A DNA stretch of 64,000 bases from Streptomyces lienomycini. GTDB taxonomy: Bacteria; Actinomycetota; Actinomycetes; Streptomycetales; Streptomycetaceae. The translations under genes were made by a program, and so were the position numbers. Below are positions 16,255 through 18,907 of this stretch, piece by piece. Below the pieces are notes generated by a model. The model was not told the origin of the DNA. It was given only the letters and a program-made list of their open reading frames with translations, and ran no database searches. The stretch is taken from contig NZ_CP116257.1 of assembly GCF_027947595.1 (NCBI RefSeq), positions 1,302,001-1,366,000 of the forward strand, written 5' to 3'. Each line of letters begins with the position of its first letter. Position 1 is the first letter of the stretch.

Positions 16255-17661
16255 ATGTCGGTAGGCGAAGAGGTCCGCACCGAGCAGACCAGGCCGCAGC
16301 AGAGCCTCGGCACGGCGGCCGCGCGGAACCTGGCCACCACCACCAAGTCCGTTCCTCAGATGCAGGAGATCAGCTCGCGCTGGCTGCTGCGCTCGCTGCC
16401 CTGGGTGGACATCCAGGGCGGCACGTACCGGGTGAACCGGCGTCTGACCTTCGCCGTCGGCGACGGCCGGGTGACGTTCGTGAAGACCGGCGACCGCGTC
16501 GAGGTCATCCCCGCGGAGCTGGGCGAGCTGCCGGCCCTGCGTTCGTACGAGGACGACGAGGTCCTCTCGGAGCTCGCGCAGCGCTGCGAGCAGCGCGAGT
16601 TCGGCCCCGGCGAGGTCATCGCCTCCTTCGGCGGCCGGGCCGACGAGGTCTACCTGCTGGCGCACGGCAAGGTCGAGAAGATCGGCAGCGGCCCCTACGG
16701 CGACGACGCGGTGCTCGGCGTGCTCGCCGACGGCGCCTACTTCGGGGACCAGGCGCTGCTCGACGGCGACGCCATCTGGGAGTACACCGCCCGCACGGTC
16801 ACGGCCTGCACGGTCCTGGTGCTGCCCCGCCAGGAGGTGGAGCAGGTCGCGGAGCGGTCGGACTCCCTGCGCGAGCACCTGGAGCAGCGGCGCTCGATCC
16901 CGGAGCAGAACACCAACAGGCACGGCGAGAAGGCGATCGACCTCTCCGCCGGCCACAGCGGCGAGCCGGACATCCCGCATACCTTCGTCGACTACGATGC
17001 CCGGCCCCGTGAGTACGAACTGAGCGTCGCCCAGACCGTGCTGCGCATCCACTCGCGCGTGGCCGACCTGTACAACCAGCCGATGAACCAGACCGAGCAG
17101 CAGATCCGGCTGACGGTCGAGGCGCTGAAGGAGCGTCAGGAGCACGAACTCGTCAACAACCGCGAGTTCGGCCTGCTCCACAACTGCGAGTACGACCAGC
17201 GCATCCAGCCCCACGACGGCGTGCCCGGCCCGGACGACCTGGACGAACTGCTGAGCCGCCGGCGCGGCACCAAGCTCCTGCTCGCCCACCCGCGCGCCAT
17301 CGCCGCCATCGGCCGCGAGCTGAACAAGCGCGGACTCGTCCCCGAGACGATCGACATCGCCGGGAACCGCATCCCGACCTGGCGCGGTGTGCCCATCTAC
17401 CCGTGTAACAAGATCCCGGTCACCGACGCCCGCACCACCTCGATCATCGCGATGCGTACCGGGGAGCAGGACCAGGGCGTCATCGGCCTGCGGGCCACCG
17501 GCATCCCGGACGAGATCGAGCCGAGTCTGTCGGTGCGCTTCATGGGCATCAACGAGCAGGCCATCATCAAGTACCTGGTCACGGCCTACTACTCGGCCGC
17601 CGTCCTCGTGCCGGACGCGCTCGGCGTCATGGAGAACGTCGAGATCGGCCGCTGGCGGTGA
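16255..17661 (+). CDS. Family 2 encapsulin shell protein with cyclic-nucleotide-binding domain (EshA-like)
   Basis: 468 residues. The N-terminal arm (1-35) is polar, and [27 protein letters not shown] begins the HK97-type shell fold. A cNMP-binding-like domain follows at about 95-205 ([20 protein letters not shown], then [11 protein letters not shown]), and the shell fold resumes from about 255 with long helices and [20 protein letters not shown] to the C-terminus. This order matches family 2B encapsulins and Streptomyces EshA. In the phosphate cassette the canonical FGE and Arg are replaced (FGD, then AIWEYT), so ordinary cAMP binding is doubtful. It should assemble into a cytosolic protein compartment. 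The prenyl synthase gene 85 bases downstream is the likely cargo. Confidence 0.88.
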
Positions 17662-17680
17662 CGTCACTCTCCCGGACTCC

Positions 17681-17708
17681 GTGTCCCCGCCCTCTCGGGC
17701 GGGTACAC
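17681..17708 (+). terminator. hairpin between shell gene and cargo gene
   Basis: CCCGCCC-TCTC-GGGCGGG (17686-17703), extended by GTGT (17681-17684) with ACAC (17705-17708) across one mismatch. There is no T-run. It lies between two same-strand genes, so it may act as a partial terminator or 3' stabiliser. Confidence 0.6.
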
Positions 17709-17746
17709 CCCGGGGGTACGGACGGGCCCATGGGGAAGGTGAGTCC

Positions 17747-18907
17747 ATGACGGAGACCGGGCGCGGCGCCGTCGCGACGCGCCGTCCCAGCGGAACGCCT
17801 GAGAGGCACGGGCCCATCGCCACACAGCGGGACGGAGAACCGGGGGAGTCGTCCGAGGGCCAGGGGACGGGGGTGGCCGAAGGGCACGAGGCGGCGGTGC
17901 TCCTGAGGGAGTCCCGGGCGTCGGTCGACCCCGAACTGCGCGCCGCCATCGGGACCCTGCCCGACGCGATGCGGCGGGTCGCGCTCTACCACTTCGGCTG
18001 GCAGCACGCGGACGGCACGCCCGCGGCGGACAACGCGGGCAAGGCGATCCGTCCCGCACTCGTCCTCACGGCGGCGACCGCGCTCGGCGGACCCGTGGCG
18101 CGGGCGGCGGTGCTCCGGGCCGCGGCGGCGGTGGAACTGGTCCACAACTTCACCCTGCTGCACGACGACGTGATGGACCGGGACGCCACCCGGCGCCACC
18201 GGCCCACGGCGTGGGCCGTGTTCGGGGACGCCGACGCGATCCTCGCCGGGGACGCCCTCCAGGCGCTCGCCCTGCGGATGCTCGCCGTGGACCCGCACCC
18301 GGCGTCCGCGGCGGCGGCCGCCCGGGTCGCCGACTGCGTCATGGAGTTGTGCGAGGGCCAGCACGCGGACACGGCCATGGAACGGCGCCCGCCGGGCGAG
18401 GTCACCCTCGCGGAGACGCTCACCATGGCCGAGGCCAAGACGGGTGCCCTGCTGGGATGCGCCTGTGCCGTCGGGGCCCTGTACGCCGGGGCCGCCGAGG
18501 AGGACGTCGAGGCCCTGGACGCCTTCGGCCGGGAGGCGGGGCTGGCCTTCCAGCTCATCGACGACGTCATCGGCATATGGGGCGACCCGCGCCGGACCGG
18601 CAAGCCGGCCGGTGCGGACCTGGCCGCACGCAAGAAGTCGCTGCCGGTGGTCGCCGCCCTGACCTCCGGTACCCCGGCCGCCACCGAACTCGCCGAGTTG
18701 TACGCGGCGCCGTACGACGAGCACAAGGAGGACCTGCGGCGCACCGCCCTGATCGTGGAGCGGGCCGGGGGCCGGGACTGGGCGCAGGCCCAGGCGGCCG
18801 ACCGGATGGCGAGAGCCATGCAGGAGCTGGCCCGTGCCGTGCCCGAGCCGGAGGCGGCGGGGGGCCTGCTCGCCCTGGCCGAGTTCGTGACCCGGCGCAG
18901 CACCTGA
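17747..18907 (+). CDS. Polyprenyl diphosphate synthase, probable encapsulin cargo
   Basis: 386 residues from ATG at 17747. Trans-isoprenyl synthase features: KAIRPALVL, the first Asp-rich motif LLHDDVMDRD with Asp140, 141 and 144, AILAGDALQALA, and FQLIDDVIGIWGD at 268-280. The second motif reads DDVIG rather than DDxxD, as in many actinobacterial C20 synthases. The first 48 or so residues are Gly/Glu/Arg/Ser-rich and without predicted structure, a tail that ordinary synthases lack; in family 2 encapsulin systems such tails load the enzyme into the shell. It would make a C15-C25 prenyl diphosphate. No terpene cyclase lies nearby. Confidence 0.88.
   Translation: MTETGRGAVATRRPSGTPERHGPIATQRDGEPGESSEGQGTGVAEGHEAAVLLRESRASVDPELRAAIGTLPDAMRRVALYHFGWQHADGTPAADNAGKAIRPALVLTAATALGGPVARAAVLRAAAAVELVHNFTLLHDDVMDRDATRRHRPTAWAVFGDADAILAGDALQALALRMLAVDPHPASAAAAARVADCVMELCEGQHADTAMERRPPGEVTLAETLTMAEAKTGALLGCACAVGALYAGAAEEDVEALDAFGREAGLAFQLIDDVIGIWGDPRRTGKPAGADLAARKKSLPVVAALTSGTPAATELAELYAAPYDEHKEDLRRTALIVERAGGRDWAQAQAADRMARAMQELARAVPEPEAAGGLLALAEFVTRRST

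Follow-up and report, generated by a model that had tools for sequence, protein, structure and literature searches.

Background and identification of the operon

The closest described relatives of the locus analysed here are family 2B encapsulin operons in which the gene for the shell protein is accompanied by a gene for a polyprenyl diphosphate synthase (PT). Excerpts of PMC8346489 (Andreas and Giessen 2021) count 900 such PT operons, 888 of them in Actinobacteria, describe PT N-termini with 50-100 disordered residues and no shared PT motif, and propose GPTGLGTSAAR as a cargo motif. In those of PMC8049743, the polyprenyl diphosphate synthase gene is the most frequent neighbour of family 2b shell genes, and cargo loading in family 2A depends on a disordered N-terminal domain. 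As far as the excerpted literature extends, PT-type family 2B shells have neither a demonstrated cargo nor a known destination for their product. One such operon was followed up in a stretch of 64,000 nucleotides from Streptomyces lienomycini (the window; contig NZ_CP116257.1, positions 1,302,001 to 1,366,000), whose genome (G000) is a single contig of 7.86 Mb. Handles beginning with G, L and f denote genomes, loci and families used for comparison. The operon consists of:

16255..17661, + strand: family 2B encapsulin shell gene, 468 amino acids (NF041163, PF19307, PF00027)
17662..17746, + strand: spacer of 85 bases, with AAGG 7 nt before the PT ATG
17747..18907, + strand: PT gene, 386 amino acids (NF041169, PF00348)

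Profile matches and gene order make this almost certainly a PT-type family 2B encapsulin operon, which is an already known class whose disordered tail has also been proposed in print (2021); the operon itself is ordinary. A PT follows the shell gene in 77 of 80 loci and, as two of the misses end less than 300 bases past the shell, in 77 of 78 testable ones (two of the 77 being partial). The initial annotation had read a family 2B layout with a domain resembling those that bind cyclic nucleotide monophosphates (cNMP) in an HK97-type fold, a polyprenyl diphosphate synthase 85 bases downstream and a phosphate cassette of FGD without Arg; the shell and PT profiles were matched, the coordinates and spacer were confirmed, and the cassette reads unlike a cyclic AMP (cAMP) site in the translation.

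We favour, with a probability of about 0.6, an explanation in which the shell of this PT-type 2B operon would assemble like its solved relatives, and PT would make a C15-C20 product by condensing isopentenyl diphosphate with allylic substrates of the diphosphate type. In the Streptomyces clade to which the locus belongs (clade A), PT would be recruited into the lumen through its N-terminal tail, many relatives having tails with an [I/V]G[T/S/A]Q-type motif. The tail would have been gained once in this clade, tail recruitment would be a lineage-specific trait, and the cNMP-like domain would not act as a cAMP sensor. PT is here probably a lumenal cargo, judging from the sequence comparisons below; its encapsulation is plausible at this locus and not implied by the type of operon.

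The prenyl synthase and its N-terminal tail

PT scored 487.5 bits against NF041169 ('family 2 encapsulin cargo protein polyprenyl transferase', cut-off 450) and 198.8 bits against PF00348, and among the best 120 of 7812 protein matches many bear the name 'family 2 encapsulin nanocompartment cargo protein polyprenyl transferase' already. Its features are:

17747..17878, + strand: predicted disordered N-terminal tail, PT residues 1-44 (predicted local distance difference test, pLDDT)
17873..17875, + strand: alternative GTG start at codon 43, which would drop the tail (344-amino acid database entry P0008)
18164..18178, + strand: first Asp-rich motif DDVMD (D140-D144), with F135 at position -5 and no insertion
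18560..18565, + strand: second Asp pair D272-D273 (DDVIGIWGD), invariant in alignments A1 and A2

Residues K99, R102, D140, D141, D144, R149, R150, K231, D272, D273 and K286 are invariant in 24 and 42 sequences, D140, D141, D144 and F135 are invariant in alignment A2, and the AlphaFold2 model (42 sequences) has a predicted template modelling score of 0.82; PT is apparently an intact trans-prenyl diphosphate synthase. In prenyl synthases a Phe at -5 without an insertion goes with a C20 product. This rule points to C20 for PT, whereas the clusters with geosmin synthase (GeoA) described below point to C15.

In the model, pLDDT lies below 50 at residues 1-13 and 15-44, block means over residues 1-40 are 25-32, and the first helix begins at residue 43. 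The unstructured part had earlier been put at about 48 residues; disorder is indeed predicted, over a shorter length of 42-44. The ATG at 17747 is favoured as the start because of the AAGG 7 nt upstream, an in-frame ATG fixed in 13 loci and a moderate excess of differences at third codon positions. In those loci an MTE-starting ATG lies 85-88 nt past the shell stop and is always in frame, over seven tail lengths. Differences by codon position were 75/99/121 in the tail (ten comparisons with one reference, not independent), 168/107/365 in the core, 12/13/11 in the spacer and 63/59/98 in a second clade; the third-position excess moderately supports a coding tail.

Of 61 non-redundant PT tails, 20 contain the pattern [ILV]G[TSA][QRH], against 1.7 expected after shuffling (a test that omitted L002, L107-L109, L048, L105, L106 and three tails below 15 residues). 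The tail of the PT studied here holds a degenerate PIATQ, which does not match. A single universal PT targeting motif is ruled out by the count of 20 of 61 and the lack of the exact pattern in this PT. PT tails called at 91-193 residues were seen in L076, L080 and L070, the first with a short in-frame repeat (HGPAPRPETPPL).

Distribution of the tail among lineages

The class sample includes 40 Streptomyces genomes, and at least 31 of them have a PT shell; this is a minimum, since the fetched loci did not cover every additional shell (second to fourth) of genomes such as G541, G574, G627, G610 and G750. In clade A, called PT tails measure 20-108 residues in 15 of 18 parsed. In its sister, clade B, 12 of 13 PTs were parsed; 11 have tails of 7-29 residues and G627 one of 48 (start ambiguous). 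Tails in G023, G706, G557 and G601 were unparsed. These lengths depend on the choice of start, and only the distance from the shell stop to the conserved EAxxLL sets a hard limit. In clade B this limit is 8.7 codons in G690, 11.7 in G352, 16.7 in G651, 22.7 in G698 and 23.7 in G736; the remaining genomes have 41-85 codons of room, so that their tail lengths hang on the start chosen. In f89 it is 13.7-15.0 codons in L192, L222, L224, L225 and L257, 34.7 in L254 and 55.7 in L259, and the starts read in L255, L256, L263, L264 and L265 leave about 10-11 tail residues. The limit is 17.7 codons in L260 (f113), and the tail of L106 (f41) has at most 23 residues.

In the PT tree, clade A (18 rows) lies on one side of a branch with a Shimodaira-Hasegawa-like approximate likelihood ratio (SH-aLRT) support of 99, and clade B is supported at 83; six loci gave no PT row, and the GeoA grouping had supplied the clade labels in advance. 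The long tail is lineage-specific, most simply through one gain in clade A, and a tail so restricted cannot be a general loading signal. The initial annotation had called such a tail typical of family 2 cargo, a view that the comparison weakens: the tail is confined to one Streptomyces clade, and the shell-adjacent PTs of clade B and f89 have hardly any.

Several observations weigh against loading of PT through its tail. The database holds P0008, a tail-less version of 344 residues starting at codon 43, for which no source is stated; the short motif is missing in 41 of the 61 non-redundant tails, that of the present locus included; and the shell-adjacent PTs of clade B and f89 are almost tail-less. 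Some synthases whose fetched flank contains no shell also have extended N-termini, of 34-54 residues in L120 (depending on the start chosen) and about 90 in L135. The initial annotation had regarded a structured tail shared by orphan synthases as decisive against its proposal; the N-termini of L120 and L135 touch on this condition, and the tail here is predicted to be disordered. As PTs beside shells are nearly tail-less in clade B and f89, adjacency is no proof that PT is cargo, and the rule that a tail equals cargo status is ruled out. From this tail comparison, adjacency together with a disordered tail is an unsafe sign of cargo.

Geosmin synthase as a possible alternative cargo

The alternative that survives best, and which we consider unlikely, is that PT works outside the shell, or at it, as the source of prenyl diphosphate, the cargo being a terpene synthase with a GPTGLGTSAAR-type motif: here GeoA, encoded 0.93 Mb from the PT shell (or the 2-MIB synthase, 2-MIBS, of a second locus). 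It draws first on co-occurrence. Among 394 genomes of the class, GeoA (called at E up to 1e-120) is found in 92, a strong 2B shell in 98 and both in 89, so that a 2B shell accompanies GeoA in 89 of 92 genomes and is present in 9 of the 302 others (18/20 vs 1/117 per genus; Fisher values ignore relatedness). By automatic count 108 genomes exceeded the shell family cut-off, against the 98 used here; 15 genomes whose shell matches fell at E 1e-100 to 1e-112 were regarded as 2A-like and excluded. The genus Streptomyces cannot test the association because all 40 genomes have both genes, and joint loss is expected in f90 and part of f89 because GeoA and shell are neighbours there (22 of 24 f90 and 12 of 23 f89 fetched loci have GeoA and a shell no more than 7 kb apart, as does one Streptomyces, G635). 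The sporulation family SsgA, present in 215 of the 394 genomes, served as a control: among SsgA-positive genomes a 2B shell accompanies GeoA in 88 of 91 cases and is found in 9 of the 124 that lack GeoA (hand count), and in f90 a strong 2B shell occurs in 26 of 26 GeoA genomes and 0 of 9 SsgA-positive ones without GeoA (hand count). Lifestyle as the sole cause of the co-occurrence is ruled against by this control.

Three GeoA genomes have no strong 2B match (G477, G411, G649), and two of them have shell sequence beside GeoA or PT. In G477 this is a fragment cut by the contig end, and G649 has no shell in the fetched flank. In G411 (L200:5471-6352) a geosmin-synthase-like gene was seen beside a shell without the cNMP-like part, query residues 18-72 and 225-465 matching end to end.

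Gene clusters outside Streptomyces also favour a cyclase as cargo. In deeper relatives (L106, L107, L109) a two-domain geosmin-synthase-like cyclase is clustered with a 2B shell and a PT, and shell, PT and GeoA-type cyclase were likewise found together by BLAST in L192, L222, L224 and L259. Methylerythritol phosphate-pathway genes lie alongside shell and cyclase in L106 (two genes) and L115, and the PTs of L192, L222, L224 and L225 have only about 11 residues ahead of the fold, capped at 13.7-14.7 codons. L109 (1-15980), from a deep actinobacterial family, holds two 2B-type shells, a PT, a GeoA-like cyclase and a PF00266 (cysteine-desulfurase-like) enzyme.

Of 39 unlinked Streptomyces GeoAs, 34 contain the pattern GxGT[SAT][AGTS] in the linker or within the C-terminal 80 residues (mean after shuffling 0.26), which speaks for GeoA as cargo. 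The role of the motif in GeoA is, in the excerpts of PMC8346489, proposed and not demonstrated, and the linker motif of clade-A GeoAs lies within a longer conserved stretch, so that its conservation need not mean loading. The host's own GeoA carries only the linker variant LTGPGTSAADVG (GPGTSAAD, with R replaced by D relative to the proposed GPTGLGTSAAR); the second, C-terminal copy is absent from it and from all 18 of the 18 clade-A GeoAs examined. In ten Streptomyces with a PT shell as the sole 2B shell, the pattern is present in seven (linker 5, C-terminus 2) and missing in G524, G557 and G721. It is present in seven of seven f89 genomes in which all shells lie beside a PT (C-terminus 7, linker 5; GeoA near a contig end in G720 and G493). 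Both copies are kept in all six Streptomyces whose shells were fetched in full and include no PT-linked one, and also in G649, where no shell was found. Retention of the GeoA motif, as read from these sequences, does not track PT shells specifically, and the in-trans reading was rated lower for this reason. The motif as a marker of PT shells was not borne out, retention being weakest where the PT shell stands alone and complete where no shell is PT-linked.

The branch on which the C-terminal GeoA copy was lost is likely the one on which PT gained its tail; this coupling is suggestive and amounts to a single event. The gain of the tail fits loading of PT. A geosmin (or germacradienol) compartment formed by the Streptomyces PT shell, in which the distant GeoA would be loaded via its retained GxGTSA and fed farnesyl diphosphate by PT, is a doubtful proposal; its extension, in which geosmin synthase would be the functional partner of 2B shells throughout the class and clade-A PTs gained a tail where the C-terminal GeoA copy was lost, is offered just as tentatively. 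On the destination of the product, a question raised by the initial annotation, the distantly encoded geosmin synthase is a candidate by co-occurrence and motif, short of proof. If true, the link would tie a common soil odour, geosmin, to a virus-derived compartment, and the co-occurrence offers a simple laboratory handle on what 2B shells do.

Another shell could also take GeoA in this organism. The genome encodes a second 2B shell, of the 2-MIBS type (G000:C1:3875115-3876458), and the two shells could mix or share cargo. At this locus (L012:8981-12783, about 3.875 Mb), the shell is accompanied by a 2-MIBS-like cyclase (tail motif RGPTGPGTTSLAL) and a methyltransferase-like gene. In the shell tree (quick method, SH-aLRT only) the Streptomyces PT shells group together (28 rows, support 100), and a support of 90 unites them with a clade that contains nine 2-MIBS-type shells and the shell linked to GeoA in G635. 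Each two-shell pair has one member near the GeoA-linked shells of f90 (82). The tree gives the PT shell no special standing as the shell for GeoA.

The two-shell pairs in Streptomyces (L114, L232, L266, L267, L268, L269) belong to genomes in which no PT-linked shell was found and whose unlinked GeoA keeps both motif copies; they are XK-type (xylulose kinase) by position only. In the excerpts of PMC12407261, the native cargo of XK systems is given as not known. In seven f89 loci (L193, L194, L195, L197, L198, L229, L231) GeoA lies beside two 2B shells, with a degenerate linker (GMN) and a near-canonical, GLGTATAR-type C-terminal copy.

Possible drift of the tail, and the shell protein

A rival in which PT and shell lack any durable physical tie, their genes being co-transcribed neighbours and the tail drifting, unconstrained sequence, is distinctly improbable. 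The tail does change faster than the core, with differences at 163 of 444 aligned residues in the tail and 245 of 2000 in the core, and called tails span 11-193 residues (the mis-called start of L062 excluded). Against drift stand the reading frame, which persists across seven tail lengths while the ATG stays in place, and the enrichment of the short motif, and the near-constant pairing of PT and shell speaks against the lack of a tie. Tail-mediated recruitment of PT in clade A remains the preferred reading.

The shell scored 768.4 bits against NF041163 (cut-off 400) in a profile search, and its parts are:

16297..16353, + strand: N-arm stretch, residues 15-33 (read from the translation)
16594..16857, + strand: cNMP-binding-like insertion, residues 114-201 (PF00027, 62.7 bits)
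16900..17652, + strand: HK97-type SrpI-like part, residues 216-466 (PF19307, 453.8 bits)

The cNMP-like domain precedes the SrpI-like part within the same protein. The solved chains nearest by sequence are 9bhu, 9bix and 9bje (top match 9bhu_A, E 3.6e-197), and by analogy with these relatives self-assembly of the shell is inferred. In the translation, the phosphate cassette of the cNMP-like domain is altered to FGD. The canonical cAMP phosphate-binding cassette contains an Arg (consensus), and this feature of a cAMP-binding cyclic nucleotide-binding domain (CBD) is absent from the shell. A cNMP-regulated compartment, in which a cyclic nucleotide would bind the insertion and gate PT activity, has the PF00027 match above its cut-off in its favour and is nonetheless highly improbable, its cAMP form being ruled out by the altered cassette and by the report, in excerpts of PMC12407261, that the CBDs of 2B relatives do not bind cyclic nucleotides.

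By eye, the N-arm stretch SLGTxAARNL of the present shell (16297-16353) and of the shells of L106, L107, L109 and L115 resembles the cyclase motif GLGTSAAR; S-L-x-x-x-AAR stretches like it were seen in many other shells. Because the cargo motif (LGTSAAR) and the N-arm (SLGTAAAR) look alike, cargo may mimic the shell arm and dock where the N-arm docks.

Genomic context

Five upstream neighbours are kept in 59-60 of the 60 loci with full flanks (PT in 60 of 60), and the operon, as gene order indicates, occupies a stable chromosomal place. By Pfam, four of them are a diacylglycerol-kinase-like protein, a sigma-70 factor, a Na+/H+ exchanger and a pyridoxal phosphate enzyme; the fifth has no match, and one conserved neighbour without a Pfam match is presumably RsbW-like. 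On one Streptomyces contig from a metagenome-assembled genome (L036:1957-3702), the third miss among the 80 loci, the shell is kept and PT is missing, about 340 bases between the shell and a GNAT gene reading as an apparent remnant of the PT C-terminus; this is possibly a natural cargo-less shell or an assembly fault.

The initial annotation had seen no cyclase nearby, and no PF19086 terpene synthase was matched within the window. All five terpene synthase genes that PF19086 detects in the genome (six matches) lie outside it, the closest (L139, G000:C1:1291547-1292134) about 26 kb upstream of the shell gene. A 2-MIBS query gave no match above 120 bits in the 80 loci, where GeoA was not used as a query.

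Comparison with known systems

IdsB-type geranylgeranyl diphosphate synthases (NF045549; PDB 3nf2) share the fold and active site of PT; unlike PT, they have a short N-terminus and no shell in the fetched stretch. PT scored 353.8 against NF045549, below its cut-off of 475, and is 43% identical to its IdsB-type paralogue in the same genome (L003); besides PT, that genome has four PF00348 genes. The family 2A cysteine desulfurase encapsulin (SrpI/CyD), as described in excerpts of PMC8049743, likewise has a disordered N-terminal cargo domain that is needed for loading, and differs in a shell without a cNMP-like domain, another enzyme and a loading domain of 225 amino acids. The 2B terpene-cyclase encapsulins (2-MIBS-like, geosmin-synthase-like) have the same shell family, with a prenyl synthase as the neighbour in the window instead; the terpene cyclases carry GPTGLGT(SAAR), whereas PT lacks the full motif. 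Closest are the PT encapsulin operons of PMC8346489, which in the excerpted text have the same shell with a cNMP-like domain, an adjacent PT with a disordered N-terminus and an actinobacterial host, so that nothing essential differs. That text gives the disordered tail for encapsulin-associated PTs generally, whereas here the long tail is found in one Streptomyces clade only.

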